DNA of 64,000 nt from Gemmatimonadetes bacterium T265 (GTDB taxonomy: Bacteria > Gemmatimonadota > Gemmatimonadetes > Gemmatimonadales > Gemmatimonadaceae): positions 1,872,342-1,936,341 of the forward strand of contig BPUI01000001.1 in NCBI GenBank assembly GCA_019973575.1, read 5' to 3'. This document shows positions 29,082 to 56,162 of the stretch, piece by piece; positions within the stretch are counted from its first letter, which is position 1; the number at the start of each line of letters is the position of its first letter. The notes beneath the pieces are model-generated. The model worked only from the letters and a program-made list of their open reading frames with translations, searched no databases and was not told the origin of the DNA. Both the position numbers and the translations under genes were made by a program.

Positions 29082-29433
29082 GACGGCGGGGGACGGGGAG
29101 GATGTCGCGCGCGGGCTACGGCGCCGGCGCGATGGCGGGGCGGGGCCACAGTGAGATCGGTCACAGGACGAACGAAGCCGGGGCTGGCAAAATCGCCCGC
29201 GCATCTGCTCCCGCAATCGCGTGCATGCTGCGGCGGGGCCATACGCCGGGCGCCACGCGGCGCGGTGCGGGCGTGTGCATGTCTTGACACGCGCGGACCG
29301 CGTCCCCACAATCGGCCCGTCTTCGCGGGCCCTGCGCCGCGACCGGCTTGTCGAGGCCGGCAGGCCGTGCGTGCCCTCCGCCGGCCCCGACCCACGCCCA
29401 GCTCGGGAGCGGCGCGCGCCGCCGACATCGCCC
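29082..29433. other. Divergent intergenic region between flhG-like and the T6SS kinase
   Basis: These 352 bp are without a credible gene, between the minus-strand flagellar operon and the plus-strand T6SS. They contain one good vegetative-type promoter towards the kinase (29284-29312) and no convincing sigma-28 or sigma-54 promoter for the flagellar side. This is the left border of the T6SS block. Confidence 0.6.
29284..29312 (+). promoter_or_regulatory. Sigma-70-type promoter for the T6SS kinase
   Basis: A perfect -35 TTGACA (29284-29289), a 17-bp spacer and CACAAT (29307-29312, four of six consensus bases) lie about 120 bp before the kinase ATG. In such G+C-rich DNA a perfect TTGACA at correct spacing is uncommon. 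The predicted leader is about 115 nt. Confidence 0.55.
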
Positions 29434-31908
29434 ATGCGGTCTACGACGCCTGCCACGTTTTGTCCGTCCTGCGGATTTACCTCCGGGGCGGACGCACGCT
29501 TCTGCTCGAACTGCGCGACGCCGTTGGTCGTCCCCGGGGCCGACCCGCTGTTCACGCGGGTGCGCAACGCCCTCGCCCACGAGTTCGAGGTGTTGCGCGA
29601 GATCGGCCGCGGGGGGATGGCCGCCGTGTTCCTGGCGCGCGAGCTGACGCCGCGGCGGATGGTCGCGATCAAGGTCATGCTGCCCGAGCTGGCCTACTCC
29701 GACTCGATGCCGCAGCGGTTCCTGGCCGAGGCGCAGACGGCGGCGATGCTCGAGCACCCGAACATCGTGACGATCTTCCGCACCGGCGAGGCGGGCGGGG
29801 TACGGTACTTCGCGATGCGCTACATCGACGGCGCCTCGCTCGAGCAGTTGCTGCTCGTCGGCGGCCGGTTTCCGGTCCGGCTCGCCTGCTACGTGCTCGC
29901 GGAGATGGCGCGGGCGCTCGACTTCGCGCACGGGGAGGGCGTCGTGCACCGCGACGTGAAGCCCGGCAACGTGATGCTCGACCGGCGCTGGGGGCGGGCG
30001 ATCGTGACCGACTTCGGGATCGCGAAGGTGGCCGACGGGGCCAACCTGACGCGGACCGGGCTCACGATCGGCACGCCGTCGTACATGAGTCCGGAGCTCT
30101 GCCGCGGCCTGCCGCCGACGAGCGCCTCGGACCAGTACGCGCTCGGCGTGGTCGCATATCAGCTCTTTACCGGCGCGCCGACCTTCGTCGGCACGCCACT
30201 CGATGTGCAGAACGCTCACGTGCGCGAGGCGCCGCGCCCGCTGCGGGACCTCTGTCCGGAGTGTCCGGAGTCGCTTGAGCGTGCGATCCAGCGCATGCTG
30301 GAGAAGCGGCCCGAGGACCGGTGGCCGCGCCTCGCCGACGCCATCCCGGCGCTGCTGGCCCACGTCGGCCCGGAGGCGGAGTGTCAGGAGGAGTTGCGCG
30401 CGCGGCTCTCGCGACTCGGGCACGCGTGGGAGGGGTCGCCGTACGACCGGCGCACGCACGAGCGGCGGTCGGGGCAGGACGAGGTGGTGGTCGACGCCCT
30501 GCCGGGCGCACCGGCCGTCGCGCCCGCGACCGCCGAGCCGTTACGGGCCGACCCGGTGCCGGCCGCCTCGGTGCCGGCCGCCTCGGTGCCGGCCGTCTCG
30601 CTGCCGGCCGACCCGCTGCCGGCCGACCCGCTGCCGGCCGACCCGCTGCGCGACGCGCGGCCCGTTCCGGTAGCGTCGGTCGACGTGTTGCCGCGCGTCG
30701 TCCACCTCGCGCCGGGGCAGACCGCCACGCTCCGCGCGCTCGCGCTGAGCGCGGAAGGCGTCGTGCTCGACGGGCGGGAGGTCGAGTGGTCGGTGAGTGA
30801 CCCGGCGGTGGCCGTCGTCGATCGCCAGGGGTCGGTTCAGGCGACGGCGCCCGGGCGCGTGCTCGTCCGCGCGGCCTGCGGGCCGGCCAGCGCGACGGCC
30901 GAAGTCGCCGTCGCGCCGTCGGTCGCGGCGCCCCTGGTGGACGACGGTTCGGCGGCCGACGGGGTCGGGAGTGCGGCGCCGGGCGTTCGACCGGCGTCGG
31001 TCGCGCCGGCGCTCAACCTCACCTACGTCCAGGCGCCGCGTCCGGCGACCCCGGACGTCACGCACGGGGGGAACGGGATCGCGGCCGAGCCGCTCACTCC
31101 GCCCGCCGCCGCCCCGTCGTCCGCGCCAGTTCCTCCACCGCTTCCTCCACCGCTCCCGACGCCGTCCCTGGTGATGCCGGCGGCTCCCGAAGTCCCCGAG
31201 CTCGACGACGAGGGCGACCTCGGGTCGGGGCGGTGGCACGCGCCGGCGGACGTGTGGCGTGAGCCGGCGGTGCCGGCCGCGGCGTGGACGGAGACGGCGG
31301 GGCCGCGACGGGCCGGTCGCGCCGTCGCGCTCGGCGGCGCGGCGCTCGCGGTGATCGCGTTAGGCGCCGCGGTGGTCTACGGCAGACGTGGGGTGGACGG
31401 CGGCGACGTCAAGGCTCCGGGGGCCGCGCCCGTGGTCACCGCGCCCGTGCTCACCGCGCCGGTGGTCACCCCGCCGGCCGTGCCCGCGGGCGCCGCGCCG
31501 TCGACGCCGGCCGTGGACAGCGGCGTGCCGGCGGCGGTCGCGTCCACGCCCGGCGCGGACAGCGCGGCGGCCGCGGCCGCGCACCGCGACAGCGTGCGGC
31601 GCGCGGCCGCGCGCCGCCGAGCCGACCCGCTCGCCAAGGCGCGCGTGCTCATCGAGCGGCACACCGGGGTCCCAACCCTCCACGTCGGCGAGACGATGCC
31701 GCTGGTCGCCTGGCTCGTCGACAGCACGGGGAAGGTCGTCGGCTCGGGCACGGTCCACTGGACGTCGAGCGATCCGTCGGCGCTCGACGTCTCGGGCGGG
31801 GTCGCGCGCGCCAAACGGGCCCAGGCGGACGAGGTGGTCGTCACCGCGCGCATCGGGAGCAAGCGCGGCCAACTGCGAGTGCGGACGGTCGCGGCCGGCG
31901 AGGGCTGA
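29434..31908 (+). CDS. Transmembrane Ser/Thr protein kinase (PpkA-type) with zinc ribbon and Ig-like domains
   Basis: This 824-residue protein begins with a zinc ribbon (Cys10, Cys13, Cys24, Cys27). The kinase domain (about 50-320) is complete: Gly-loop GRGGMAAV, Lys80, Glu99, HRD Asp174, Asn179 and DFG Asp193. A repetitive linker (375-404) follows, then a Big-like beta domain (about 425-500), a Pro-rich stretch, one transmembrane helix (about 630-650) and a periplasmic Ig-like domain at the C-terminus (VHWTSSDPSALDVSGG). In several bacteria such kinases post-translationally activate T6SS. The usual partners (FHA protein, PppA phosphatase) were not recognised here. It is the first gene of the T6SS block. 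Confidence 0.9.
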   Translation: MRSTTPATFCPSCGFTSGADARFCSNCATPLVVPGADPLFTRVRNALAHEFEVLREIGRGGMAAVFLARELTPRRMVAIKVMLPELAYSDSMPQRFLAEAQTAAMLEHPNIVTIFRTGEAGGVRYFAMRYIDGASLEQLLLVGGRFPVRLACYVLAEMARALDFAHGEGVVHRDVKPGNVMLDRRWGRAIVTDFGIAKVADGANLTRTGLTIGTPSYMSPELCRGLPPTSASDQYALGVVAYQLFTGAPTFVGTPLDVQNAHVREAPRPLRDLCPECPESLERAIQRMLEKRPEDRWPRLADAIPALLAHVGPEAECQEELRARLSRLGHAWEGSPYDRRTHERRSGQDEVVVDALPGAPAVAPATAEPLRADPVPAASVPAASVPAVSLPADPLPADPLPADPLRDARPVPVASVDVLPRVVHLAPGQTATLRALALSAEGVVLDGREVEWSVSDPAVAVVDRQGSVQATAPGRVLVRAACGPASATAEVAVAPSVAAPLVDDGSAADGVGSAAPGVRPASVAPALNLTYVQAPRPATPDVTHGGNGIAAEPLTPPAAAPSSAPVPPPLPPPLPTPSLVMPAAPEVPELDDEGDLGSGRWHAPADVWREPAVPAAAWTETAGPRRAGRAVALGGAALAVIALGAAVVYGRRGVDGGDVKAPGAAPVVTAPVLTAPVVTPPAVPAGAAPSTPAVDSGVPAAVASTPGADSAAAAAAHRDSVRRAAARRRADPLAKARVLIERHTGVPTLHVGETMPLVAWLVDSTGKVVGSGTVHWTSSDPSALDVSGGVARAKRAQADEVVVTARIGSKRGQLRVRTVAAGEG
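30556..30645 (+). repeat. Six tandem 15-bp coding repeats in the kinase linker
   Basis: There are six consecutive 15-bp units: three of the type GTGCCGGCCGCCTCG and three of the type CTGCCGGCCGACCCG. They encode VPAAS/VPAVS then LPADP pentapeptides (residues 375-404). Such in-frame units can change number by slippage and so alter linker length. Confidence 0.9.
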
Positions 31909-31932: not shown

Positions 31933-34900
31933 TCAGCGCGTGACCTGCGCCGCGCAGGCCATGCCGCCGAGCCACCCGCGCTGGAGCACCGGCGCGCCGT
32001 TGGCGAAGGTGAACTCGACCGCGACGGGGCCCTGGCCGCCGGCGTTCCACTCGGCCCGCCAGGTGCCGCCGCCGCCCTCCCACTTGGTCGCCTGCGCGAC
32101 GACGCGGAAGAGCGCCCACTCGCCGCCGGCGCGCGCGACGGCCTTCGTGCGCCCGAAGACCACGAGGTTCCGGTAGCCGACGTCGAGGCGCGCCTCGCGG
32201 CCGCTCGTCGACGGCCAGACGAACTGCGCGGGCGGGGCGTCCTTGCCGAAGTGCGCCACCTGTGCGCCCTGGACGAGCGTGGCGGCCTTGTCGCCCGCGC
32301 CGCGCGCGGTGAAGACGACGTTCGGCGTCGGCGCGTCGCCGTAGAGCGCGGTCGACACCTGGAGGGCGCGGTTGAGGAAGGCGAGGAAGGGGGCCGAGAG
32401 GGCGACGGGTGCGCCGGGGCGCGGTACGAAGCGGGCGCCCTGCTTTTCGCCCTGTTTCTCGACGAGGCCTTCGAGTCGTTCCTGCTCGAGCGCCCAGAGC
32501 GCGCCGGTGCCGGGGGCGAACATCGCGTTCACCTCGGCGAGCGACGCCTCCGCCGGCGCGTCGGGGTTGAACGGGAATTTCGCGAGCACGGGCGTCATCG
32601 CCGCGCAGAGGGCGCGACCGCGCTCGTTGAGGGCGGCCGCGAGGGCGGCGGCGTCGCCGCGCGGCACGGGGGCGGGGCCGCCGGTCGCCGCGGCGACGCG
32701 CGCCGGCGGACGCGTGGCCGCGACGCCGCGCAGTACGCCTTCGGCGCTCTCGATGGGCGCGACGAGGAGCGCCGCGACGGCCGGACCGACGGCCGCCGCG
32801 GCCGTGTCGGCGGAGAACTTCTGCGCGAGCTGGCGCGCGGCCACCTTGGCCTGCGCGGCCTGCCCGAGCGCCTGCTGCCCCGCCTGCGCCACCTGCAGCG
32901 CGCTCGCCGTGTCGACCGGGGGCGGCAGGTTGCCGACCTGCTCCACCGCGCCCTGGAGGGCGAGCAGCGCTCCCGCGTACGGCCGGTTGGCCTCGGTGAC
33001 CAGCTCGCCGGCCGGCGCGGACGACGCGACGGCGTGCACGGGCTGGAACGCGGCCTTCATCGCGGAGTCGACCGCCGTGTTGCGCGCGGCGAGCGCGAGC
33101 CCGGCGAGGAGCGGCGACTGTGCACCGCCTAACGTGCCGAGTTTCTGCGCGGCGTCGCGCGCGCCGGCCGCGCGCGCGACCGCGAGGCCGCGCACGTACG
33201 AGCGCCAGCGCGCCACGTAGTCGGCGCGGTAGCGCGCGCGCAGTTCGGCGAGCACACGGTCGCGGTCCTGCCCCTGCGCCGCGACGGCGTCGCCGACGAC
33301 CCAGCGCTCCCCCGCGAAGAAGCGGTCGGCGTGGCGGAAGGCGTCCTGCATGAACGCCCAGCCGCGCGCCGTGAACGCGCCGGGCATGTCGCCGGGCGTG
33401 GTCACCACGCCCGCCGCGAGCGGCGCCACGTCGGCGAGCCGCGCCGGTGGGACGCCCTTCGAGGCCTCCGCCAGCATGTACTGGTAGATGCGCTCCGGGC
33501 CGGTAAAGCGGGCGAGGAAGTCGCGCGCGTGTCCGACGAGCGCGGCGTCGGCCGCGGCGGGCCACGGGTTCGCCACGGGCAGCTCGCGCGCGTAGAAGTC
33601 GAGTTGTCGGCGGAGCAGCGCGTTAGGCTCGGCGCCGACCGGCTGGTCGCGCGTCCAACTCGCGAGCAGCACCGGGGTGAGGAACTCGGGGGTGCTCCGC
33701 ACGGGCTCCGCGGTCGTGACGAGGTACGCCTTGAGCTGGGCGTAGGCGCGCCCGTAGTCGTCGCTCGGGGTCGGCGCGTCGGGGAGGGCGCGGAGCGCGG
33801 CGGCGAGGGTGCGGCGGGCCTGGCCGAGGCCCTGGCGGTCGAGCGCGGCGAAGTAGGCGGCGCGCGTGGGCGCGGCGAGCGGGTCGCCGGCGTACAGACC
33901 CCAGCGTAGCCCGAGCGGCGCGCCTTCACGCGCGTAGTCGTCGAGCAGCGCGGCACGCGCGCGGAGGGTGTCGAGGCGGCGGAGCGACTCCGTGCTCGGC
34001 AGGTCGGCGCCCGGCGCGGGGAGCGCGGCGACGTCGGCGAGCGCGGCACGCGTGTCGTCGGCGAGGGCGCGGTTGTTGGCGTACGAAACGGTGAACGCGA
34101 CGGCCAAGCCTAACGCGAGCGCGGCCGCGCCGGCGCCGATCGCACGCCGGGCGAGGCGGACGCGCACGCCCGCGCCGGTGACCGCTGCGGCCGCCGCGTC
34201 GGCGAGCAGCAGCTCGTCGAACAGCCGGCCGAGGAAGAGCCAGCGCGGCACCTTGCGGGGCGGGCGGAGGGGCGTGGCGCCGTACGGCGCGGCACCGTAG
34301 GGCGAGGCCGCGAGCGCGGGCGCCTCGGCCACGGCGCCGAGGCGGAAGACGCCGGTCGCATCGGTCGCGCGGGCAACCGCGGGGCGTCCACCGACGGCCG
34401 CGGCCGCCGCAGGAGCCGGCGCCTCGTCGCGCACGACCACGGCCTGCACCCCGGAGAAGTAGAAACCGCGCAGGAACGGGCTCACGCCGAGCTGGCTCGG
34501 CCGGCACAGCTCGACGAGGAAGCGCGTGACCGGGGGGCCGAGCTTGCGGAACTCGCGCGGGAACTCGAACGCGTCCCAGCGGCGCTCCTCCGCGTGCTCG
34601 CGGGCGAGCAGCGGTGTGCGCCGCTCGGCGAGAGCACCGAACAGGCGGGCGAACGCGTCGCCCACGCGAGCCGTCTCGCGCTCGGCGTAGAGGCCCGCGT
34701 CGGCGGAGGCGGGGAGGGGGAGTGTCTCGCCGAACACGGCGAGCGACTCCTCGCGCGTGAGGGTTTGGGTGTATTCGGCGAAGAAGCGGACGCGGTCGAG
34801 CTTGGTGAACAGCACGTAGACGGGCACGGGCACGCCGAGCTGCTCGGAGAGCTCGGCGAGGCGGGCGCGGAGGGCGCGCGCGGTGGCCTCGAGCGCGCCG

Positions 34901-35517
34901 CCGTCGGGGCGAAGCAGCTCCTCGCAGCTGAGGCAGACGAGCGCGACGCGCTTGGCCGCCGCGCCGCGGCCGACGACGGCGGCGCGGCGGTCGGGCTGGA
35001 GGCGGCGCACGACGTGCGCCCACCGCTCGGGCGCGCCGCTCACGGCGGGGCCGGCCTCGACGAGCACGGTGCCGCGCGCGTACCAGACGTTGACGGTCGG
35101 CGTCGGCGCGACGAGGTCGTCCTGGTAGACCGCGCCGGCGAGCAGTTCGGGTTCGAGGCCGGAGTGAACGACGCTCGTCGTTTTCGCGCTCGCCTCGGGG
35201 CCGAGGACGACGACGGCCGGCAGGCGCGCGAAGGGCGCGCGGCCGAGGGGGCGGTCGCCCGCGCGGCGCGTGGCGAGGCGCTCGGCGGCCGCGGCGAGCA
35301 GGGTGTCGACGTCGTCGGCGACGGGGCGGACGGTCTTGCGCGGGAGCAGGAACCAGAGGAGCGCGACGGCGGCTACCGCGCCGAGGGCCCAGAGGACGTC
35401 GGTGAGCACCGCGCGGTCGGCCGGCCCCGCCAGGCGGCGCCCCGCCCACCACGTCGCGGCCGCGTAGGCGACGAAGCCGAGGACGACGCCGATCCAGACC
35501 TTGAGCGTGCGCGACAT
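31933..35517 (-). CDS. tssM: T6SS inner-membrane core protein TssM (IcmF)
   Basis: This 1194-residue protein has two N-terminal transmembrane helices (about 7-27 and 40-58), a cytoplasmic GTPase-like region with P-loop GPEASAKT (106-113, Ala instead of the usual Gly before Lys), a third helix (around 455-480) and a long periplasmic part ending in the IcmF C-terminal beta-rich domain (REARLDVGYRNLVVFGR). It forms the envelope channel with TssL. It converges on the kinase gene and is transcribed after tssL (19 bp gap). Confidence 0.93.
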   Translation of the reverse strand: MSRTLKVWIGVVLGFVAYAAATWWAGRRLAGPADRAVLTDVLWALGAVAAVALLWFLLPRKTVRPVADDVDTLLAAAAERLATRRAGDRPLGRAPFARLPAVVVLGPEASAKTTSVVHSGLEPELLAGAVYQDDLVAPTPTVNVWYARGTVLVEAGPAVSGAPERWAHVVRRLQPDRRAAVVGRGAAAKRVALVCLSCEELLRPDGGALEATARALRARLAELSEQLGVPVPVYVLFTKLDRVRFFAEYTQTLTREESLAVFGETLPLPASADAGLYAERETARVGDAFARLFGALAERRTPLLAREHAEERRWDAFEFPREFRKLGPPVTRFLVELCRPSQLGVSPFLRGFYFSGVQAVVVRDEAPAPAAAAAVGGRPAVARATDATGVFRLGAVAEAPALAASPYGAAPYGATPLRPPRKVPRWLFLGRLFDELLLADAAAAAVTGAGVRVRLARRAIGAGAAALALGLAVAFTVSYANNRALADDTRAALADVAALPAPGADLPSTESLRRLDTLRARAALLDDYAREGAPLGLRWGLYAGDPLAAPTRAAYFAALDRQGLGQARRTLAAALRALPDAPTPSDDYGRAYAQLKAYLVTTAEPVRSTPEFLTPVLLASWTRDQPVGAEPNALLRRQLDFYARELPVANPWPAAADAALVGHARDFLARFTGPERIYQYMLAEASKGVPPARLADVAPLAAGVVTTPGDMPGAFTARGWAFMQDAFRHADRFFAGERWVVGDAVAAQGQDRDRVLAELRARYRADYVARWRSYVRGLAVARAAGARDAAQKLGTLGGAQSPLLAGLALAARNTAVDSAMKAAFQPVHAVASSAPAGELVTEANRPYAGALLALQGAVEQVGNLPPPVDTASALQVAQAGQQALGQAAQAKVAARQLAQKFSADTAAAAVGPAVAALLVAPIESAEGVLRGVAATRPPARVAAATGGPAPVPRGDAAALAAALNERGRALCAAMTPVLAKFPFNPDAPAEASLAEVNAMFAPGTGALWALEQERLEGLVEKQGEKQGARFVPRPGAPVALSAPFLAFLNRALQVSTALYGDAPTPNVVFTARGAGDKAATLVQGAQVAHFGKDAPPAQFVWPSTSGREARLDVGYRNLVVFGRTKAVARAGGEWALFRVVAQATKWEGGGGTWRAEWNAGGQGPVAVEFTFANGAPVLQRGWLGGMACAAQVTR

Positions 35518-35536: not shown

Positions 35537-36295
35537 CTAACGTGAAGCCGCGGCGGCCGCGGGCGCGACCTGGGCGGCCGCGGCGTCGGCGTCGCGCACG
35601 TCGCCCGCGAGCGCGACGCGGTACGCGCCGAAGAGCACGGCGGCGAGCCCGGCCGCGGCGGCGGTGCCTAACGCGAGGCGGCGCGCCCAGGGGTCGCGGG
35701 GCGCCGCCGGGCGCTCCCCGTCGGGGAGCCGCCACGCGGGCGAGAGGTCGTCGGGCAGCGCGCGCGCGCGCCGGATCTTGTCGTCCACCGCGGCGAGGAG
35801 GCCGTGGAAGTCGCCGTTGTCGCCGGCCCCGTAGCGGCCGCGGAAGCCGAGCAGCAGGCAGAGCTCGTAGACCTCGAGCAGGTCGGCGGACGCGGGGTCG
35901 TCGGGCCCGGCGAGGAGTTGGCGCAGCTGGCGGAAGAAGTGCTCGCCGCCGACGTGGCCGCCGAACAGCTCGTTCTGTAGCGGCTGGCGCGCCCAGTCCG
36001 CGAGCGCGGGCTGGGCGCTGTTGAGCACGGACTCGTCGAGCAGGGCCGTCACGGCGTAGAGCGCCAGCCGCGCGTGCTCGGCCGAGTACCCGGCGCGGCG
36101 CGCCTCCTGCTCGGCGGCGAGCAGCAGCTGACGGATCTGGTCGCGGAAGGCGGCCGCGTCGGTCACGGCCTGGCGGCGCGCGCGGAGGCGCACGGTGGCC
36201 GTGAGGACTTCCTGCAGGATGAGCGCGAGCGGCGCGGGGCCGCGCCGCGCCGTCGCGCCGTTGGCCGGCGCGTCCGACGACGCTCGAACGTTCAC
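35537..36295 (-). CDS. tssL: T6SS inner-membrane protein TssL (DotU)
   Basis: This 252-residue protein has a DotU cytoplasmic helical domain (YAVTALLDESVLNS, NELFGGHVGGEHFFRQL, VYELCLLLGFRGRY) followed by a single C-terminal transmembrane helix (about 208-232) and a short tail. There is no peptidoglycan-binding extension. It pairs with TssM and contacts TssK. Confidence 0.95.
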   Translation of the reverse strand: MNVRASSDAPANGATARRGPAPLALILQEVLTATVRLRARRQAVTDAAAFRDQIRQLLLAAEQEARRAGYSAEHARLALYAVTALLDESVLNSAQPALADWARQPLQNELFGGHVGGEHFFRQLRQLLAGPDDPASADLLEVYELCLLLGFRGRYGAGDNGDFHGLLAAVDDKIRRARALPDDLSPAWRLPDGERPAAPRDPWARRLALGTAAAAGLAAVLFGAYRVALAGDVRDADAAAAQVAPAAAAASR

Positions 36296-36458: not shown

Positions 36459-37817
36459 TCAGCTGTCGAGCAACACGGCCAGCTCGAGCTCGGCGCCGGG
36501 GAGTTCGGCCGGCACGAACACGCCGACCGCGCGCGTCATGCGCACGTGCTCCCAGCAGGGCCCGTCGGTGTTCACGGCGAAGTAGCGCGTGTCGACGCGG
36601 GGGGCGATCGCGGCGGGGGGCACGGGCAGGTACGTCAGGCCCATCCCGGGCAGCGCGCGTTGGACGAGCTTCGCGACGCCCTCGGCCGAGCAGACCTTCA
36701 GCAGCCGCGGCACGCGCTCGGCGACCTCGGCCTCGCCGAGCCGCGCGCGCACGCCGAGGATCCAGCGCGACGGCCCGAGCGTGCGTGCGTCGGCGAGGGC
36801 GCCCTCGCGCAGGTACTCCGCCGCGGCGCGCAGCGGCACGCGCACGCAGGTGGTGGGCACGACGAGCTCGAGGTGCGCGCGCACGTGCCGCTCGAGCGCG
36901 TCGACGCACTCGCCAAGATGTTCGTGGTCGTACGCGGGCAGTTGGGCCGGGTCGGCGTCGAGGGCGAAGGTGCAGAGCGCGCCGGCGAGGCGGGCGAGCT
37001 CGACGTAGAGGCGCTCCGGGTGCAGCTCGCGCGCGGCCAGCAGGTGGCGGAGCGGGGGGAGCGCGCTGTGCACGGCGTGGAGGAGCCAGTACGTCGTGAT
37101 CTCGTGCGTGCCGAACGCGGCGGCCATCGACGCCGGTCGCTCGCCGAGGAGGGCGAGGCGCTTGGCGTCGAGCACCTCGACGGTGCGCCGCAGCCCCGCG
37201 AGGAGCCGCGGGCTCGCCCCGATTTGGAGCGAAGGTGGGACGTAATCCGCGTCGTAGGCGAGTGCGCCGCCGGTGCCGCGCCGCACGCGCGCGATCGGGA
37301 GGGTGACGAGGTCGGTGTCCGCCGCCTCGCGTGCGAGCTCGTGCGCGAAGAGGAGGCGGAAGTTCTTGCGGCCGAGGAGTACCGGGCGCACGTCGCGGCC
37401 GAGCACGTCGTCGGGCACGTCGCGTGGGACGGCGGTGAAGCGCGCGCCGTCGGGTTCGTCGCCGTCGGCGACGTTCGCCCCGTCGGCGCGGTACGGCGGG
37501 ATGGCGAGCAGGAGCAGCGACGCGTCGGCGCGCGGCGCGAGCGCGTCGGCGGCGGCGCGGGACGGCGGGAGCGGGTCGCCGTCGGGCATGTCGAAGGCGA
37601 GTCCGTCGGGCATCACGCCGCGCGCCTGGCGCAGCGCGACGACGCCGTTGCCGAGCGCCTCGGCGTCGAGGGCGAGCGCGGTCACGCCGTACGCGGCGTA
37701 AAAGAGTCGCGTCAGCGCGAAATCGACGGACGCCTCGAGGTGCCGGGCCTGCGCCTGGAAGTGGTGCTGGGCCAGGTGCATGCCTTCCTGCCAGACCACC
37801 TTCGAGAGCCGCGTCAT
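36459..37817 (-). CDS. tssK: T6SS baseplate protein TssK, copy 1
   Basis: This 452-residue protein matches TssK: VVWQEGMHLAQHHFQAQARHLE at the N-terminus, AIPPYRAD, GRKNFRLLF, the HEITTYWLLHAVHSALPPLRHL helix and VPRLLKVCSAEGV and YFAVNTDGPCWEH in the C-terminal domain. TssK trimers link the baseplate to TssL/TssM. I used ATG 37817, as upstream in-frame sequence has no similarity. A 163-bp gap with a short GC hairpin (36372-36390) separates it from tssL. Confidence 0.94.
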   Translation of the reverse strand: MTRLSKVVWQEGMHLAQHHFQAQARHLEASVDFALTRLFYAAYGVTALALDAEALGNGVVALRQARGVMPDGLAFDMPDGDPLPPSRAAADALAPRADASLLLLAIPPYRADGANVADGDEPDGARFTAVPRDVPDDVLGRDVRPVLLGRKNFRLLFAHELAREAADTDLVTLPIARVRRGTGGALAYDADYVPPSLQIGASPRLLAGLRRTVEVLDAKRLALLGERPASMAAAFGTHEITTYWLLHAVHSALPPLRHLLAARELHPERLYVELARLAGALCTFALDADPAQLPAYDHEHLGECVDALERHVRAHLELVVPTTCVRVPLRAAAEYLREGALADARTLGPSRWILGVRARLGEAEVAERVPRLLKVCSAEGVAKLVQRALPGMGLTYLPVPPAAIAPRVDTRYFAVNTDGPCWEHVRMTRAVGVFVPAELPGAELELAVLLDS

Positions 37818-37918
37818 CGCTGCCTCCACTCTTGCTGCCCGCGCCGGCGGCCTGCATTGTTGGGCGCCCGCGGCCGAGGCGCGGGCGCGGTCCCCAACGT
37901 AGGCGCGATCACCGGCCC

Positions 37919-39298
37919 ATGACAAGCGAACAATTCGCGCGCGAGTACGAACTCCTCCGGCGGCTGACGACCGCGGGCGTCCAGACGTTCGAGGCGCGCC
38001 GGGTCGGCGCGCCGGCGCTGCTGCTCGCGCACTGGATGGGGAGCGGTGGGGACGACGCGACGCAGGCGCTGCTCACGCGCGTGCTCGGCCTCCCCGCGCC
38101 GGCGTGCGACGCGGTCGAGGCGATCGTCGACGTGGAGGGGGCGACGGTCGTGATGACGACTGCGCTGCCCGGCTTCACCTCGGTCGAGTCGTGGTTGGAC
38201 GAGGCCGAGCGGCCGGCCGCCGCGCCCGCCCCGCCGCTCGTGCCGCAGCTGGTCGTACCGGAGCCGGCCGTGCCGGAGCCAGAGCAGGTGTTGCATCACG
38301 CGCCGGTTGCCGGCGAGTTCACGCAGCTCTTCCAGGGACTCGACGCACGGGCGCCGGCTCCGAGCCCGCCTCCGGACGCGAAGCCGGCGCCTGCGCCCTC
38401 GGACGGGATGCGGCCGGTTGACGGCGAGCCCGGCACGTTCACTCGCCTGTTCCAGCCGCTCGCGGCTGCGCCACCCGCTGCACCACCGGCGCCGCCGCCC
38501 GCGGCACCCGCGGCACCGGCGATGCCGGCCGCGCCGGCGAGCGAGCCCGGCGAGTTCACGCGGCTTTTCGCGGCCGGCTTCGGCGCGTCGGACTTGGGCA
38601 GGTCCGAGCCGGCGCGCCCGCCGGCGCCGTTCGGCGACGGGCGACCGGCCGCGCCCCCGCCCGCGTGGCCGGCGTTCGAACCGCCGCCCGCGGCCCCGCC
38701 CGCGCTGCCGGTGTTACGCGCGGTCCCGCCGCCCGCCGCGCCCCCGGCGGCGCGCGGCGGGTCGGGCGCGACCGGCGTGTTCCGCGAGCTGCCGCGTGCC
38801 GCGCCCGGCCCGCTCGGCGCTTTCGCCGGGAACGGCGACGCCGGGCCCGGCCCGGTCCCCTTCCCGCGCGCCGCCGACGGCCTGCGCGCCCCGCCGCTCG
38901 CGCTCGACGACGCGCTGTTCGCCGCGCCCGCGGGGCCGAGCGAGTTCACGCGCGTGATCGCGACGCGGCCGAGCACGTCGGCGCGCCTGGCCGACCCGTT
39001 AGTCACGGCACCGCCCCGGACGGGGGCGGCGGACGCGGCCGGCGGCGCCGGCGCGCCCGCCGGCGCGCGCCGGCGCTCGATCGTCCCGCTGGTCATCCTC
39101 TTGAACGTGCTCCTGCTGATCGTCGTCGTGCTCCTCGCCGTGTTCGCGATGCGCCGCACGCGTCAGTCGCCGTCGGGGAGTACGACGACGAGTTCGAGCC
39201 GCGGGTTGGGCACGTCGGCCGGCACGTACGCGGCCACGGTGCGCGAGCGCCGGATGGCGTCCCAGGCGGGGCCCGACTGGTTGAGCGAGAAGTACTGA
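37919..39298 (+). CDS. T6SS-locus membrane protein with repeated EFTRLF motif, undescribed
   Basis: This 459-residue protein's N-terminus (1-95) faintly resembles a protein-kinase N-lobe up to the hinge (VVMTTALPGFTSVESWL) but has no catalytic region. A Pro/Ala-rich linker holds recurring short motifs: GEFTQLF (132), GTFTRLF (172), GEFTRLF (211), a diverged GVFREL (286) and SEFTRVI (341). A transmembrane helix follows at 388-411. The layout suggests several identical docking sites on a tethered flexible arm. Residues after 412 are encoded opposite the 3' end of the second tssK (136-bp overlap) and may be read-through. It starts divergently from tssK1. Function unknown; a T6SS scaffold role is inference from position. 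Confidence 0.72.
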   Translation: MTSEQFAREYELLRRLTTAGVQTFEARRVGAPALLLAHWMGSGGDDATQALLTRVLGLPAPACDAVEAIVDVEGATVVMTTALPGFTSVESWLDEAERPAAAPAPPLVPQLVVPEPAVPEPEQVLHHAPVAGEFTQLFQGLDARAPAPSPPPDAKPAPAPSDGMRPVDGEPGTFTRLFQPLAAAPPAAPPAPPPAAPAAPAMPAAPASEPGEFTRLFAAGFGASDLGRSEPARPPAPFGDGRPAAPPPAWPAFEPPPAAPPALPVLRAVPPPAAPPAARGGSGATGVFRELPRAAPGPLGAFAGNGDAGPGPVPFPRAADGLRAPPLALDDALFAAPAGPSEFTRVIATRPSTSARLADPLVTAPPRTGAADAAGGAGAPAGARRRSIVPLVILLNVLLLIVVVLLAVFAMRRTRQSPSGSTTTSSSRGLGTSAGTYAATVRERRMASQAGPDWLSEKY

Positions 39299-40515
39299 TA
39301 TTCGAGCTGCACCGGCACGGCCGCGGCCGGGACGGGCGCGTGCGCGAGCGGCACGCCGGGGAGCGCCTGCCGGATGAGCGCGTCGACGCCGTCGGCCGAG
39401 CAGACCTTGACGAGCTGCGGCACGCGCTGGAGGAGCGTGGGGCGGTCGACGTCGGCGGCGACGGCGAGGTAGAGCTGCGGGGCGGCGAGGTAGCGGTCGT
39501 CGTCGAGCGCGGCCGCGTAGACGGACGCGCGCGTCGGGCGGAGCGGCAGCGAGACCGCGCGCGTCGGCAGCGCGGTCTGGAGCAGCTCGCGCACGCGCGC
39601 GTCGAGCGCGCCGAAGCAGCGGCCTAACTCGCCGTGGTCGTACGCCGGCAGCGCGGCCGCGCCGTCGGGGGCGAAGGTCGCGAGCGCGCCGGCGAGTGAG
39701 AGCATCGTCGCGTAGAGCGTCTCCGGGTGCCCGCGGCGCGTCTCCGCGAGGTGGCGGACGACGGGGAGGAAGCTGTTCACCGTGTACAAGAGCCAGAACG
39801 GCGCGACGTCCGCCGCGCCGAATTCGGCGAGGCCCTGGTTGCGCTGGCGGCGCCCGGTCGCGAGCGCCGCGCTCCGCGAGGCGAGGAGTTCGGCGAGGCG
39901 CTGGGCCATCGCGACGAGCGCGTCGCTCCCGGCGAGGTCGACGAGCGGCGGGACGACGGCCGGGTCGAGCTCGTAGGCGCCTGCCGCGCCGCGCCGCACG
40001 CGCGCGACGCGGATCGCGGCGCTCCCCTCCAGCGGCTCGCCGTCGAAGAGCAGGCGCACGTTCTTGCGGGCGAGCTGGACCGGGCGCTCGGCGAGCCCGG
40101 TCGTCTCGTCGCGTCGCATGACGACCTCGATCGTGTAGCGCGTACCGTGGCCGTCGCGCGAGTCCGAGGTGACGTGGCCGCCGGCGCGCTGCTCGGCGAT
40201 GGCGAGGTAGACGTCGAGCGCGGCGCGGTCGGCGTCCCACGCCGGTTCGACCGGGCGCGGCGGCGGGAGCGCGTCGGCGCCCGGCGCGTCGTAGAGCAGC
40301 CCGTCGGGGAAGATCGCGGCCGCGCGCGTGAGGGCGAAGCGCCCGGCGGCGAGCGCCTCGCGGTCGATCTGGAGACGGTGCATCCCCCACGCGTCGGGCG
40401 CGAGCGTCGCGAGCCGGAACGCGAGCTGGTCCTCGAGGAAGCGGTCCTGCGTCTGCAGGTGCTGCGGCGTGAGCAGCACCCCCTTGGTCCAGAGGACCGG
40501 CTGCATCTGGCGCAT
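39163..40515 (-). CDS. tssK: T6SS baseplate protein TssK, copy 2
   Basis: This 450-residue protein is a second full-length TssK (VLWTKGVLLTPQHLQTQDRFLEDQ, GRFALTRA, ARKNVRLLFDG, WLLYTVNSFLPVVRHL, VPQLVKVCSADGVDALIRQALPGV, YQYFSLNQSGPAWD). It is clearly paralogous to the copy at 36459-37817 but diverged over the middle domain. The final residues differ in length. It is transcribed after the unknown gene at 40583-41575. Confidence 0.93.
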   Translation of the reverse strand: MRQMQPVLWTKGVLLTPQHLQTQDRFLEDQLAFRLATLAPDAWGMHRLQIDREALAAGRFALTRAAAIFPDGLLYDAPGADALPPPRPVEPAWDADRAALDVYLAIAEQRAGGHVTSDSRDGHGTRYTIEVVMRRDETTGLAERPVQLARKNVRLLFDGEPLEGSAAIRVARVRRGAAGAYELDPAVVPPLVDLAGSDALVAMAQRLAELLASRSAALATGRRQRNQGLAEFGAADVAPFWLLYTVNSFLPVVRHLAETRRGHPETLYATMLSLAGALATFAPDGAAALPAYDHGELGRCFGALDARVRELLQTALPTRAVSLPLRPTRASVYAAALDDDRYLAAPQLYLAVAADVDRPTLLQRVPQLVKVCSADGVDALIRQALPGVPLAHAPVPAAAVPVQLEYQYFSLNQSGPAWDAIRRSRTVAAYVPADVPNPRLELVVVLPDGD

Positions 40516-40582: not shown

Positions 40583-41575
40583 TTAGGCGAGGCCGACGAC
40601 GGCGAGCTCGAGGCTCGCGCGCACCCGGACGAGACAGTAGCCGGGCGGTACTAACGAGCCGCGGTCGTGCGCGGGCGAGAGGTGCGCGGGCGACGACGCG
40701 CCCGGGCGCGCGGCCCGGCGCGCGAGGAACGCGGGCGTGACGTGCCCGACGACGCGCCCGCGCTCTTCGAAGCGCTCCCACGCGGGCGCGAACCAGTAGC
40801 GGTCGGCCGCGCCGCCCGCGGGCGCGCCGCTCGCGGCGCCGGCGCGCCCTGTGAGGCGGGCGTACGCGGCCGCGGCGTCCGGCGTCATCGCGTCGAACGC
40901 CGCGGTGTCGGGGAGGAGCACGTCGGCCGTGAACCACGCCGCTGGCGTGCCGGCCGCCGGCGCACCGGCGGGCGCGCACAGCGTGGCGTCGTCGAGGGGC
41001 GGCGCGGCCGGCGGCGCGCCGGTTCCGGCGACGAGCACGAGCCGGTACGCGGCCGCCGCCGCGAAGGCGGGGCCGTCGCCCGGTGCGCGCGCGATCACCA
41101 CGCGCGTAGGCTCGCAGAGCACGAGCGCGCGCCACTGCGCGCCCGCGCGCGCCAGGGGGGCGCGTGCGCTCGGTGGGAGCGCGTCGAGCACCTCACGCGC
41201 GCGGCGCTCGTCGGTGTCCGTCCGCGTGTCGCGGCCGAGTGCCGCGGTGTACGGCGGGACGGCGCGGCGCGGCGCGGCGAAGTCGCCGCGCAGAAGGCCG
41301 CGGGCCGCGGACGCGACGCCCGGCGGCAGCGACGCGGCGTGCCCGGGGTTGAGGACGACGAGCTTGCCGTGGAGCGCGCGCAGCGCGCGCGCGAGCGCCG
41401 GCGGCACGGGCAGGCGCGGCGATGCGCGGTGCGTCGCGTACGTCCCGGCCCAGGTGGGGAGCCGGCGGGGGCGGCCGAGGAACGCGCCGAGCGCGCCGGC
41501 GCCCGGCGCCCCGGCCCAAGCGGCCGGGGCACGCGCGGCCGTGCGGTCAACGACGTGAAAGGGCTGCGGCCTCAT
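40583..41575 (-). CDS. Unknown protein of the T6SS locus
   Basis: This 330-residue protein is Ala/Pro/Arg-rich with some ordered-looking segments (LARALRALHGKLVVLNPGH, WRALVLCEPTRVVIARAPGDG, YRLVLVAG, YWFAPAWERFEERG, CLVRVRASLELAVVGLA). There is no signal peptide, transmembrane helix or recognisable motif. It does not look like TssJ, TagF or an FHA protein. It precedes tssK2 by 67 bp in the same direction and diverges from tssB, so it probably shares the T6SS regulatory region. The coding call rests on length, position and codon pattern. Confidence 0.6.
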   Translation of the reverse strand: MRPQPFHVVDRTAARAPAAWAGAPGAGALGAFLGRPRRLPTWAGTYATHRASPRLPVPPALARALRALHGKLVVLNPGHAASLPPGVASAARGLLRGDFAAPRRAVPPYTAALGRDTRTDTDERRAREVLDALPPSARAPLARAGAQWRALVLCEPTRVVIARAPGDGPAFAAAAAYRLVLVAGTGAPPAAPPLDDATLCAPAGAPAAGTPAAWFTADVLLPDTAAFDAMTPDAAAAYARLTGRAGAASGAPAGGAADRYWFAPAWERFEERGRVVGHVTPAFLARRAARPGASSPAHLSPAHDRGSLVPPGYCLVRVRASLELAVVGLA

Positions 41576-41892: not shown

Positions 41893-42456
41893 ATGCCCGA
41901 GAGCACGCAGAAGAAGTTGGAGCGCGTCCGCCCGCCGCGCGTGAACATCACGTACGAGGTGGAGACGGGCGGCGCGATCGAGCTGAAGGAGCTGCCGTTC
42001 GTGATGGGCGTCCTCGCCGACTTCACCGGCCAGCCGACGGAGCCGCTGCCGCGGCTCAAGGAGCGCAAGTTCGTCGAGGTCACGCCCGACAACTTCGACG
42101 AGGTGCTGGCGAGCATGGCGCCGCACGCGGCCTACACGGTCGAGAACGTGCTGAGCGACGCGCCCGACGCGCCGCGGCTGGCCGTCGACCTCACGTTCAA
42201 GTCGCTCGACGACTTCAGCCCCGACGCGGTGGCGCGCCAGGTCGGCCCGCTGCGCGAGCTGCTCGAGCTGCGCACGAAGCTGGCCGACCTGCGCGGGCGG
42301 CTACAGGGGAACGACCGGCTCGACGACGTGCTGCAGGCGACGCTGCGCGACGCGGACAAGATGGCGCAGCTGCGCGCCGAGCTCGGCGGGGGCGCCGCGA
42401 ACGGCGCCGCGGCGAACGGCGCGACGCCTAACGGCGAGGGCCCGGCCCATGGCTGA
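41893..42456 (+). CDS. tssB: T6SS contractile sheath protein TssB (VipA)
   Basis: This 187-residue protein has the TssB core (VNITYEVETGGAIELKELPF, VMGVLADFTG, LKERKFVEVTPDNFDEVL, LTFKSLDDFSP). The C-terminus is extended by an Ala/Asn-Gly linker. It forms the sheath with TssC. A GAGGA site lies 9 bp before the ATG. tssC begins 8 bp before its end. Confidence 0.97.
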   Translation: MPESTQKKLERVRPPRVNITYEVETGGAIELKELPFVMGVLADFTGQPTEPLPRLKERKFVEVTPDNFDEVLASMAPHAAYTVENVLSDAPDAPRLAVDLTFKSLDDFSPDAVARQVGPLRELLELRTKLADLRGRLQGNDRLDDVLQATLRDADKMAQLRAELGGGAANGAAANGATPNGEGPAHG

Positions 42457-43942
42457 GACCCAGGCGGCGCAGCCGCAGTCGTACGCGCCCGACGCCGCGG
42501 CGGCACCCGCGCTCCTCGACCAGATCGTCGCCGAGGGGCGGCTCGGGCGCGGCGACGAGGCCGCGCGGGACCGCGGGCGCGAACTCGTGCGCCGCTTCGT
42601 CGAGCAGGTGCTCGAGGGCGCGATCACCGTCGGCCGCGACACCGAGGCGATGGTCAACGCGCGCATCGCGCAGATCGACGACCTCATCTCGCGCCAGCTG
42701 AACGCGGTGATGCACGCGCCGCAGTTCCAGAAGCTCGAGGGCACGTGGCGCGGGCTCAAGTACCTGATCTCGCAGACGGAGACGAGCGACAAGCTGAAGA
42801 TCAAAGTCCTCAACGTCTCGAAGAAGGAGCTGCTGAAGGACCTCCGCGGCGCGTCCGAGTTCGACCAGAGCGCACTCTTCAAGCGGGTCTACGAGGAGGA
42901 GTACGGCACGCTGGGCGGGGCGCCGTTCAGCGCGATGGTCGGCGACTACGAGTTCGACCGCGGCGGGCAGGACGTCGAGCTGCTCGAGCGCATCTCGCAG
43001 GTGGCCGCCGCCGCACACGCGCCGTTCCTGACCGCGGCGGCGCCGGCGATGTTCGACATGGACAGCTTCTCCCAGCTCGACCAGCCGCGCGACCTCGCGA
43101 AGATCTTCGACACGACCGAGTACGCGAAGTGGAAGGCCTTCCGGCAGACGGAGGACTCCCGCTACGTCGCGCTCACCTGCCCGCGCGTGCTGCTGCGCGT
43201 GCCCTACGGCCCGGGGGAGAACGAGGAGCCGGTCGAGGCGTTCGACTTCCACGAGCACGTCACCGGCCGCGCGCACGACGACTACCTGTGGGGGAACGCG
43301 GCCTGGGCGCTCGCGGCCCGGGTGACCAACGCGTTCGCGCTCTCGGGCTGGTGCGCGATGATCCGCGGCGTGGAGGGGGGCGGCCGGGTCGAGGGGCTCC
43401 CGGTGCACACGTTCCAGACCGACGCCGGCGAGACGGTGCTCAAGTGCCCGACCGAGGTGCAACTCACCGACCGGCGCGAGCACGAGCTGGCGAACCTCGG
43501 CTTCGTCGGGCTCGTGCACGAGAAGGAGACGCCCAACGCGGTGTTCCTCAGCGTGCAGTCGGGGCAGAAGCCCAAGCTCTACGACACGCCCTCGGCCACC
43601 GCCAACGCCCGCCTCTCGGCGCAGCTGCCCTACATCTTCGCCGTGTCGCGCTTCGCGCACTACCTGAAGGTGATGATGCGCGACAAGATCGGCAGCTACA
43701 CGTCGCGCGCGGAGACCGAGGCGTTCCTCAACCGCTGGATCTCCAACTACGTGGTGGGCAACGCCGACGCGCCGATCTCGGTGAAGGCGAAGCGCCCGCT
43801 CAGCGACGCGCGCGTCGAGGTGGCCGAGGTGCCGGGCAAGCCGGGCGCCTACCGCGCGATCGCGTACCTCCGGCCGCACTTCCAGCTCGACGAGATCAAC
43901 ATCTCGATGCGCCTCGTCGCCGAGCTCCCGTCGGCGAAGTAG
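42449..43942 (+). CDS. tssC: T6SS contractile sheath protein TssC (VipB)
   Basis: This 497-residue large sheath subunit has family landmarks LEGTWRGLKYLI, VYEEEYGTLGG, FGALIGDYEF-like AMVGDYEFDRG, the HYLKVMMRDKIGSYTSR segment and AYLRPHFQLDEINISMRLVAELP at the end. Together with TssB it polymerises around the Hcp tube and contracts; ClpV recycles it. Confidence 0.97.
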   Translation: MAETQAAQPQSYAPDAAAAPALLDQIVAEGRLGRGDEAARDRGRELVRRFVEQVLEGAITVGRDTEAMVNARIAQIDDLISRQLNAVMHAPQFQKLEGTWRGLKYLISQTETSDKLKIKVLNVSKKELLKDLRGASEFDQSALFKRVYEEEYGTLGGAPFSAMVGDYEFDRGGQDVELLERISQVAAAAHAPFLTAAAPAMFDMDSFSQLDQPRDLAKIFDTTEYAKWKAFRQTEDSRYVALTCPRVLLRVPYGPGENEEPVEAFDFHEHVTGRAHDDYLWGNAAWALAARVTNAFALSGWCAMIRGVEGGGRVEGLPVHTFQTDAGETVLKCPTEVQLTDRREHELANLGFVGLVHEKETPNAVFLSVQSGQKPKLYDTPSATANARLSAQLPYIFAVSRFAHYLKVMMRDKIGSYTSRAETEAFLNRWISNYVVGNADAPISVKAKRPLSDARVEVAEVPGKPGAYRAIAYLRPHFQLDEINISMRLVAELPSAK

Positions 43943-43988: not shown

Positions 43989-44486
43989 ATGGCGTTCGAC
44001 ACGTACATGAAGATCCAGGGCATCGACGGCGAAGCCACCGCGAAGGGCATGGAGAAGCAGGTCGCCCTCCAGAGCTTCAGCTGGGGCGCCTCCAACCCGA
44101 CCAACCACAACCCGGGCACCACCGGGCTCGCCGCGAGCCGCGTCACGGTGAGCAGCTTTAGCTGCCTCAAGCAGACGGACAAGACGAGCGCGCCGCTCTT
44201 CCTCGCCTGCTGCAAGGGGACGCACATCCCCGAGATCGACGTGACGATGCGCAAGGCGGCCGGCGACGCCGGGCAGGCGCCCTTCCTCGTCTACAAGTTC
44301 AAGAACTGCCTCGTCGAGAGCGTGCAGTGGGCGGGCTCGAGCGGCGGCGACGACACCCCGACGGAGTCGGTCTCGATCGCCTTCGACGAGGTCGAGATCA
44401 CGTACAGCCAGCAGGACACGAAGGGCGGCGCGGTCGGCAAGCCGGCCGTCGGGGCCTGGAATCTCGCCACGTTGGACGGCAAGTAG
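43989..44486 (+). CDS. hcp: T6SS tube protein Hcp (TssD)
   Basis: This 165-residue Hcp-family protein has MAFDTYMKIQGIDGEA, LQSFSWGAS, GTHIPEIDVTMRKA, VYKFKNCLVESV and VSIAFDEVEITYSQQD. It forms hexameric rings of the inner tube. A GAGGA ribosome-binding site lies 9 bp before the ATG, fitting high expression. It is followed immediately by tagJ. Confidence 0.97.
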   Translation: MAFDTYMKIQGIDGEATAKGMEKQVALQSFSWGASNPTNHNPGTTGLAASRVTVSSFSCLKQTDKTSAPLFLACCKGTHIPEIDVTMRKAAGDAGQAPFLVYKFKNCLVESVQWAGSSGGDDTPTESVSIAFDEVEITYSQQDTKGGAVGKPAVGAWNLATLDGK

Positions 44487-45299
44487 GTGCCGCCCGCCGT
44501 GCACGCCCAGGAACTCTTCCGCGCCGCCCGGCTCGACGCGGCGATCGAGGCGTTGGGCGGCGAGCTGCGCGAGCGCCCGTCGGACGCGCGCGGGCGCACG
44601 TTCCTCTTCGAGCTGCTCGCCTTCGCCGGCCAGTACGACCGCGCCGCCCGGCAGCTCGACGTGCTCGGCGCGGCGGGGCCCGGCGCGGAGGGCGGCGCGC
44701 TGCTCTACAAGAGCGCGCTCCACGCCGAGCGCGAGCGGCGCGAGCTGTTCGAGCGCGGCGGGGTCCCGGCGGCCGCGGACGGGGGCGCGGAGGCGGAGGG
44801 CGCCGTCGCGTCCGACGGGCCCGGCCTAACGAGCGACGCCCCAACGGGCGGCACCCTCAACGGCCGGCGCTTCGCGTCGATCGCGGACGCCGACCCGCGC
44901 ATCGGGGCGCGCCTCGAACTCTACGCGGCGGGGCGCTACCTGCTCCTGCCCTTCGTCCACGTCGCCTCGGTGCGCCTGGAGCCGCCGCAGCGCCTGCGCG
45001 ACCTGCTGTGGGCGCCCGCCGTGGTGCGCACCGGCCCGCGCTTCCGCGGCCGCGAGCTCGGCGAGGTGCTGCTCCCGGTGATGACGCCGCTCGCGAGCGC
45101 GCATCCGCACGACGAGGTGCGGCTCGGGCGCGTGACAGAGTGGGTGGCGCTCGACGCGCCGGCCGGGGGCGAGGCGCCGGTCGGGCAGAAGCTGCTGCTC
45201 GTCGACGGCGACGAGGTGCCGCTGCTCGAGGTGCGCGAGCTCGTCATCGACGCGCCCGACGTTCCGGCCGTGCGGCACGCCGCGCCGCAGGCCGCCTGA
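44487..45299 (+). CDS. tagJ: T6SS accessory protein TagJ (ImpE)
   Basis: This 270-residue protein starts at a GTG directly after the hcp stop. The N-terminal helical repeats (ELFRAARLDAAIEALGGELRERPSDARGRTFLFELLAFAGQYDRAARQLDV) are diagnostic of ImpE/TagJ, with the C-terminal ImpE domain after about 120. In other species TagJ binds the TssB N-terminus and aids sheath recycling by ClpV. Confidence 0.92.
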   Translation: MPPAVHAQELFRAARLDAAIEALGGELRERPSDARGRTFLFELLAFAGQYDRAARQLDVLGAAGPGAEGGALLYKSALHAERERRELFERGGVPAAADGGAEAEGAVASDGPGLTSDAPTGGTLNGRRFASIADADPRIGARLELYAAGRYLLLPFVHVASVRLEPPQRLRDLLWAPAVVRTGPRFRGRELGEVLLPVMTPLASAHPHDEVRLGRVTEWVALDAPAGGEAPVGQKLLLVDGDEVPLLEVRELVIDAPDVPAVRHAAPQAA

Positions 45300-47195: not shown

Positions 47196-47765
47196 ATGCC
47201 TAACACGCCGGCCCCCACGCCGTCCGCCCGCCGGGGAGCGCTCGAGCGCCCTGTCCGCCCGTCGCTGCTCGACCGGCTCACTGACGCCGCGCCGCACGCG
47301 GCGGCCGAGCGCATGCCGACTCGCCGCGAGTCGGTGGAGGCGTACACGCAGGCGCTGCGGCGCGACCTCGAGTGGCTCCTCAACACGCGCCGCCAGCTGG
47401 CCGACGTGCCCGAGGGCCTCGACGAGCTGCGGCGCTCGCTCGTCCGCTACGGCCTCCCCGACAGCGCCTCGCTGCTCCGCGACGCGCCCGAGGCCCGCGC
47501 GCGCCTGCTGCGCGCGGTCGAGGAGGCGGTGACCGCGTTCGAGCCGCGGCTCGCGGGCGTGCGCGTCGTACTGCGCGACGCGGCCGACGGCGCGCCGCTG
47601 CCGGCGAACCCGGGGGGCGCGCGCGCGGCCGGGGCGCTGCGCTTCACCGTCGAGGGAATCCTCCGCCTGGAGCCGGAGCCCGAGCGCGTCGTCTTCGACA
47701 CCGTATTTGAGCCGAGTCGCTCCGAATACCAGGTGCGCGGCGGCGGGGGGCTCCCGGATGCGTGA
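47196..47765 (+). CDS. tssE: T6SS baseplate protein TssE (gp25-like)
   Basis: This 189-residue protein has RPSLLDRLTD near the start and the gp25/TssE segment (VRRDLEWLLNTRR-like RDLEWLLNTRRQLAD, SLVRYGLPD, IRRAVEEAVTAFEPRL-like stretch). It links baseplate and sheath initiation. It overlaps tssF by 8 bp. Confidence 0.93.
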   Translation: MPNTPAPTPSARRGALERPVRPSLLDRLTDAAPHAAAERMPTRRESVEAYTQALRRDLEWLLNTRRQLADVPEGLDELRRSLVRYGLPDSASLLRDAPEARARLLRAVEEAVTAFEPRLAGVRVVLRDAADGAPLPANPGGARAAGALRFTVEGILRLEPEPERVVFDTVFEPSRSEYQVRGGGGLPDA

Positions 47766-50645: not shown

Positions 50646-50709
50646 TCCGCCTTCGTATTTGCCGCGGCGCCCCGCGCGCCTAACGCTTCCCCCATTTCCG
50701 AGCCGCCGC

Positions 50710-56150: not shown

Positions 56151-56162
56151 CCCGGCACAGCC

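Follow-up and report, generated by a model that had tools for sequence, protein, structure and literature searches.

Why would a single type VI secretion system (T6SS) keep two different genes for its baseplate protein TssK? The question is raised by a stretch of 64,000 nucleotides from Gemmatimonadetes bacterium T265 (GenBank assembly GCA_019973575.1, contig BPUI01000001.1, positions 1,872,342 to 1,936,341), referred to here as the window. It holds one T6SS cluster with two tssK genes, tssK-A and tssK-B, and a further gene between them, which we call gene X. A sequence-only reading of the window had pointed to two full-length, diverged tssK genes in one T6SS and to the lack of a tssJ. We find that the pair is old, that the two copies differ most where TssK is expected to dock on TssG, and that one baseplate probably uses both of them at once.

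Two TssKs in one cluster

The centre of the cluster is made up of three genes:

36459-37817, minus strand: tssK-B, a full-length TssK that keeps the usual W-x-E-G...HFQ docking motif; first gene of the group tssK-B-tssL-tssM.
37919-39298, plus strand, opposite to both tssKs: gene X, with an N-terminal domain (37919-38206), a Pro/Ala-rich linker with GEFTRLF-type repeats and one hydrophobic C-terminal helix.
39163-40515, minus strand: tssK-A, a full-length TssK with the docking motif altered to W-T-K-G...HLQ.

Both TssKs score above the curated cut-offs of Pfam and NCBIfam. TssK-A matches PF05936 at E 6.4e-135 and TIGR03353 at E 1.9e-118, TssK-B at E 6.6e-121 and 1.4e-101 respectively, and the alignments run from profile position 1 to 427-429 of 429. 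In a sequence-profile comparison with solved TssK structures (5m30, 6giy, 5y0e), the profiles of both align across the shoulder, neck and head domains. The start of tssK-B is placed at 37817 (MTRLSKVVW), within an open frame that itself begins at 37925. The two proteins are 40% identical and belong to the same cluster, which bears out the initial observation.

One copy could have come from a second T6SS. This origin is rejected, given that the 5.63-Mb genome has just two PF05936 matches, both at the window locus. A recent or chance duplication is also rejected: within genomes, A and B are 33-41% identical, and their clades are deep. The TssK pair is, in short, well supported as real, diverged and serving one T6SS.

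One old duplication, kept in two phyla

A comparison of 121 TssKs puts the A copies of Acidobacteriota and Gemmatimonadota in one group and the B copies likewise in another. The careful tree was built from 66 of these rows, after long-branched, near-duplicate and other rows had been thinned out. Here A (100/99), B (100/100) and A+B (99/92) are supported clades, and three plasmid-borne proteobacterial TssKs (L229, L230, L232) join A+B with support 97/86. With both Gemmatimonadota and Acidobacteriota in these clades, the tree places a single TssK duplication earlier than their dual systems, whether these spread by descent or by transfer.

The pair is kept with little exception. PF05936 searches of 395 Gemmatimonadota genomes gave a match in 65 and a strong one (better than 1e-100) in 46. 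Among the latter, 38 have two full-length TssKs and seven have the second copy in pieces, so that both are present in 45 of 46; the remaining genome (G362) is a 730-contig draft whose single TssK copy has an internal stop. Some Gemmatimonadota without a strong TssK (G027, G144, G250, G254, G346 and others) have weaker TssK-like proteins, which match at E about 1e-40 from profile position 1 to about 340-373; these perhaps come from another contractile system that lacks the end of the TssK head.

Conservation in related phyla, a check that the sequence-only reading had proposed, extends to Acidobacteriota. When genome contigs were scanned with TssK-A, the best 80 of 316 relatives came from Gemmatimonadota and Acidobacteriota, plus one contig titled Betaproteobacteria (L103), which clusters with acidobacterial G421 and is probably mislabelled. 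Whole genomes were checked for 30 of these 80 loci, mostly ones without TssK-B in the locus stretch, and each of the 30 has two TssKs and no more, even where they lie 313 kb apart, as in Bryobacterales F-183. A separate sample of 396 Acidobacteriota genomes gave 65 with a match, 58 with a single copy and seven with two or more. The TssKs extracted from single-copy genomes have near-equal scores on the A and B profiles, and none is of A or B type. Plasmids can carry the pair: two tssKs lie on Granulicella pACIX901 and two on a Gemmatirosa plasmid. No viral contig scanned with TssK-B gave a match.

The gene order is also largely shared. In most loci the sheath and baseplate genes lie on one strand, followed by tssK-A on the other, gene X opposite to it, and then tssK-B, tssL and tssM. 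Of 74 dual genomes, 72 gave a TssG match, and 70 of those 72 have a single copy; the two exceptions (G272, G537) both have further TssK matches. By these comparisons, the two copies have been retained together since the duplication, full-length and with a single TssG. We regard the dual-TssK system as a new T6SS baseplate variant, of ancient origin and strictly maintained.

Divergence at the expected docking site

The baseplate wedge of enteroaggregative Escherichia coli (EAEC) suggests where two TssKs could sit. Its composition is described as TssK6-TssF2-TssG1: the two feet (loops) of TssG hold a TssK trimer each, and TssK docks there by its first 15-18 residues (PMC6300606, PMC8406304). Each foot offers three unequal contact points, and F19 of TssK is reported as highly conserved (PMC8406304). 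Since one EAEC TssG seats two TssK trimers, a TssK pair per TssG fits places that already exist.

It is in this docking region that the paralogues have moved apart. The divergence between A and B peaks at residues 1-21 (0.413 vs 0.247-0.278 in the other domains), and over these residues A is further from the single TssKs than B is (0.338 vs 0.234; the long-branched singles L225 and L226 were left out). Two positions past the pocket Trp, the residue is basic in 47 of 47 A sequences, and acidic in 47 of 47 B sequences and 19 of 20 singles. At the equivalent of F19, 46 of 47 A sequences have Leu, and all 47 B sequences and 19 of 20 singles have Phe (one of seven proteobacterial sequences, L231, failed the motif search and is uncounted in both cases). 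Pocket residues W8 and L14 (EAEC numbering) are invariant or nearly so in 20-row alignments of both paralogues. By sequence, the two copies are most unlike each other in the N-terminal stretch which, in EAEC, makes up the pocket for TssG.

TssG has changed on its side of the contact. The net charge of foot 1 lies between -7 and -1 in 46 of 46 dual rows (G395 being counted twice, as L204 and L278) and between +1 and +4 in 13 of 13 single rows; in a larger set it is negative in 55 of 56 dual genomes and zero in G776. Foot 1 is also longer by 2-3 residues in dual than in single-TssK rows, and most dual rows retain its LG repeats. The rest of TssG is alike in charge in the acidobacterial rows (-2.0 dual vs -1.9 single per 100 residues). 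When dual and single TssGs are compared by column, with the partial row D_L049 left out, foot 1 differs more than the rest (p 0.0097; p 0.07 for foot 2), and it supplies nine of the 30 most discriminating columns from 36 of 351. By sequence, foot 1 of the dual systems differs from that of single-TssK systems in being longer and of reversed charge.

Gene X

Gene X was absent from the sequence-only reading. Its product begins with a domain of about 96 residues, continues with a Pro/Ala-rich repeat linker and has a hydrophobic helix at its C-terminus, and no Pfam or NCBIfam family fits it. At least one copy of a GEFTR(L/M)F-type motif is found in the intervening opposite-strand frame in 47 of the 57 locus rows that have both tssKs, several of these rows being the same genome twice. 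The motif consensus is P-G-E-F-T-R/Q-M/L-F; at its Thr position, where the pattern also accepted Ser, 236 of 238 instances have Thr. At the DNA level, a search for the GEFTRxF pattern was positive for 27 of 35 dual genomes, for none of 15 single-TssK genomes and for 1 of 30 genomes without a detected T6SS TssK; a few of these matches (e.g. G039, G379) lie away from any X-like place. By its sequence, gene X is a conserved tail-anchored protein that accompanies TssK pairs in two phyla. This co-occurrence, together with its position, suggests that it works with the pair.

The N-terminal domain is modelled by AlphaFold2 with a mean predicted local distance difference test (pLDDT) score of 89.4. 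In a Foldseek search of the PDB with this model, all 50 matches listed are kinase chains (E 1.4e-3 to 1.2e-2; query template modelling score, TMq, 0.45-0.64), and the domain is therefore predicted to have a fold like that of a kinase N-lobe. At the sequence level, the best kinase found in the PDB is weak (E 0.026), and Pfam gives no kinase match for X or for the set of 29 N-terminal domains. There is no C-lobe, as the domain runs directly into the Pro/Ala-rich repeat region.

How the two TssKs may be arranged

Taken together, we consider it probable that two specialised TssK paralogues work side by side in the baseplate of one T6SS, and a likely arrangement is one TssK-A trimer and one TssK-B trimer per wedge. 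Each wedge would then carry an A homotrimer and a B homotrimer on the two TssG feet, with A most likely on foot 1 and B on foot 2. The pocket of A is more basic and foot 1 is acidic, which points to A on foot 1; B keeps the usual pocket, which points to foot 2. We infer that the contact between A and foot 1 was rebuilt, while B was left on foot 2. B, encoded with tssL and tssM, would go on connecting to the membrane complex in the ordinary way, and A would be available for a different connection, possibly with X, the tail-anchored protein with the repeats. A more elaborate version is rather doubtful as it stands: the baseplate could be asymmetric, with B on foot 2 holding TssL-TssM and A on foot 1 binding the GEFTR(L/M)F repeats of X, which would be a new T6SS part anchored in the inner membrane; the baseplate would gain a second, multivalent attachment to the membrane, perhaps controlled by the neighbouring Ser/Thr kinase via the near-invariant Thr of the repeats.

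Several results weigh against this assignment of the feet. Foot 2 has also lost its positive charge (from a mean of +4.3 in single to about -1 in dual systems), so that foot 1 is not set apart by its charge alone. Within 56 dual genomes there is no correlation between the charge of the TssK N-terminus and that of the feet, and mutual information in the 56-genome concatenation places the feet somewhat over background without separating the pairings. In block covariation, A with foot 2 ranks above A with foot 1 (0.014 vs 0.079 of windows), and the pairing of A with foot 1 and B with foot 2 is not favoured over the crossed one. The three strongest TssK-B covariation pairs do fall in foot 2, but we do not count them as evidence. 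Furthermore, the common origin of all dual systems means that the changes in docking amount, in essence, to a single event, and the p-values assume more independence than there is. The AlphaFold model of TssK-A is poor (pLDDT 52.8) and adds nothing on its domains.

Other uses of two TssKs have to be weighed against separate homotrimers. Each trimer could contain both A and B at a constant ratio (2A:1B, for instance), in keeping with the three non-identical LG repeats of a foot. The two copies are indeed full-length and occur together, and three unequal contact points per foot are on record (PMC8406304). Positive evidence for mixing is nonetheless lacking; several pocket positions are changed in A, while B retains the residues of single TssKs, and mixed trimers alone do not predict that the feet of dual systems differ in charge. 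We consider such mixing unlikely. The sequence-only reading had also suggested alternative baseplates, that is, A-only and B-only machines made under different conditions and sharing one set of TssE, TssF and TssG. Gene X, on the other strand, splits tssK-A from tssK-B-tssL-tssM, and the two may be transcribed separately. Swappable copies would be expected to be lost at times, yet neither is seen alone save in the one 730-contig draft. There is also a single TssG, whose foot 1 departs from the single-TssK state in every dual row, and we do not favour this explanation, which seems to us improbable.

Finally, one copy may have left the baseplate to become an adaptor or regulator, for example a membrane-tethering or assembly factor acting with gene X. 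The altered docking pocket of A would fit such a role, as would the co-occurrence of the gene X motif with the TssK pair. A, however, is a TssK of full length that retains Trp and Leu in its pocket, and it is better conserved than B (mean identity 54.5% vs 47.9%); the LG repeats of foot 1 are still present in most dual TssG rows. A loss of the baseplate role is, in our view, very improbable.

The missing TssJ

No TssJ was found in the T265 genome, where PF12790 has no match at E<=1, either beside the other tss genes or elsewhere. Among 74 dual genomes, the same profile has no match at E<=0.01. This absence was given more weight in the sequence-only reading than it can bear: PF12790 detects TssJ in seven of 51 single-TssK acidobacterial genomes and not in the other 44 (seven of the 58 single-copy genomes, with a best TssK match of E 1.3e-33 or worse, were excluded). 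At the level of profiles TssJ is indeed lacking, but this does not distinguish the systems with a TssK pair, since it also goes undetected in most single-TssK genomes. T6SSs without TssJ have already been published (PMC10564176).

A rule-based lipobox scan of positions 27000-61000 of the window, a method that may miss signals, found none. In 12 Gemmatimonadota loci, a lipoprotein gene with a recognisable lipobox in most rows lies directly 3' of tssM:

L038, 2112-2711: lipoprotein gene after tssM; also in L032, L034, L039, L040, L042 and L044-L049.

Strong matches to the lipoprotein (E<=1e-39) were obtained for 16 of 18 dual genomes from other families than that of the window, and for none of 20 dual genomes within the window's family and none of 13 acidobacterial dual genomes. 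Weak matches in G000 and G080, of the window's family, lie off the locus. Searches of Pfam and of PDB sequences gave no noteworthy match. This protein is a possible stand-in for TssJ in Gemmatimonadota outside the window's family; without a strong match within the family, it does not explain the missing TssJ of the window.

The rest of the cluster

The core parts of a subtype i T6SS (TssA-I, K, L and M) are all found in the one cluster, TssJ being the exception among the 13. The remaining parts, and a kinase gene that adjoins tssM, are as follows:

29221-31908, plus strand: Ser/Thr protein kinase (PF00069, E 1.1e-41).
31933-35517, minus strand: tssM (IcmF); the TIGR03348 alignment ends at most 2 positions from the C-terminus, with a score slightly below the model cut-off.
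35537-36295, minus strand: tssL (DotU; PF09850, E 4.8e-49).
41893-42456, plus strand: tssB (PF05591).
42449-43942, plus strand: tssC (PF05943/PF18945).
43989-44486, plus strand: hcp (tssD; PF05638).
44487-45299, plus strand: tagJ (ImpE; PF07024).
45312-47186, plus strand: tssA (PF06812/PF16989).
47196-47765, plus strand: tssE (gp25-like; PF04965).
47707-49590, plus strand: tssF (PF05947, E 1.5e-212).
49641-50642, plus strand: tssG, the sole copy, with an acidic foot 1 (PF06996).
50659-53430, plus strand: tssH (ClpV; AAA_2/AAA_lid_9/ClpB_D2-small).
53453-55600, plus strand: vgrG (tssI; PF05954/PF22178).

Kinase matches lie close to tssM in many relatives as well. Directly 3' of vgrG are genes with DUF6484 and DUF2169 (55602-57197, plus strand), candidates for effector loading, and the cluster ends with a Tox-PAAR-like gene followed by a TsiV-like gene of the VRR-NUC immunity family (58251-60097, plus strand), likely an effector/immunity pair. 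Upstream of tssK-A, a gene at 40583-41575 (minus strand) encodes a 330-residue protein of no known family, with a 39% identical relative only in L035 (G080) among 20 loci compared. Several other loci have at this position a second TssC-like gene, about 30% identical (e.g. L032, 12085-13143).

Significance and comparison with known systems

In the machines studied so far, one protein forms both TssK trimers of a wedge, so that mutating tssK cannot reveal what each trimer does. In the dual systems, the two positions appear to have been divided by evolution between two genes that can be deleted, tagged and mutated separately, which would make the role of each TssG foot and each TssK trimer directly testable. 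The two TssK positions of the wedge may have become two specialised parts in Gemmatimonadota and many Acidobacteriota, inherited together as a pair, and gene X is a conserved candidate part of the T6SS. Surveys of the presence or absence of core genes pass over such duplications; one of them (Boyer 2009, PMC2660368) is described as counting duplicated genes once. In the literature covered, which took in few subscription journals and no preprints, we found no description of the TssK pair or of gene X.

Among the closest known systems is subtype i4b of Proteobacteria; one acidobacterial and one gemmatimonadete T6SS, both on plasmids, were placed by TssB in a branch of i4b (PMC9113992). The likeness seen here is that the TssKs of L229, L230 and L232, to which we assign no subtype, join A+B. 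The available text of PMC9113992 names only tssA and tssC as duplicated, and the tssK pairs of pACIX901 and the Gemmatirosa plasmid go unmentioned in it. As regards TssJ, the window resembles the TssJ-less T6SS of Acinetobacter in having TssM and TssL without a recognisable TssJ (PMC10564176). The Acinetobacter system uses TsmK and a Gly-Ser linker in TssM, and 27.5% of non-Acinetobacter genomes are reported to be without TssJ, TsmK and the linker (PMC10564176).

The acidobacterial single-TssK T6SSs (L207-L221, L223-L226) are alike in the core families where covered and mostly have no TssJ. They differ in having one TssK, basic TssG feet (13 of 13 rows), another gene order and no GEFTRxF DNA pattern (0 of 15); relative to them, foot 1 of the window-type dual systems is acidic and longer. 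The EAEC wedge TssK6-TssF2-TssG1(-TssE) (PDB 6N38; PMC6300606) and the system of the window share TssF, a two-footed TssG with LG-type repeats, TssE, TssL, TssM and three-domain TssKs, in our case as judged by sequence. EAEC seats trimers of one TssK on both feet, whereas the window system brings two diverged TssK genes to each TssG.

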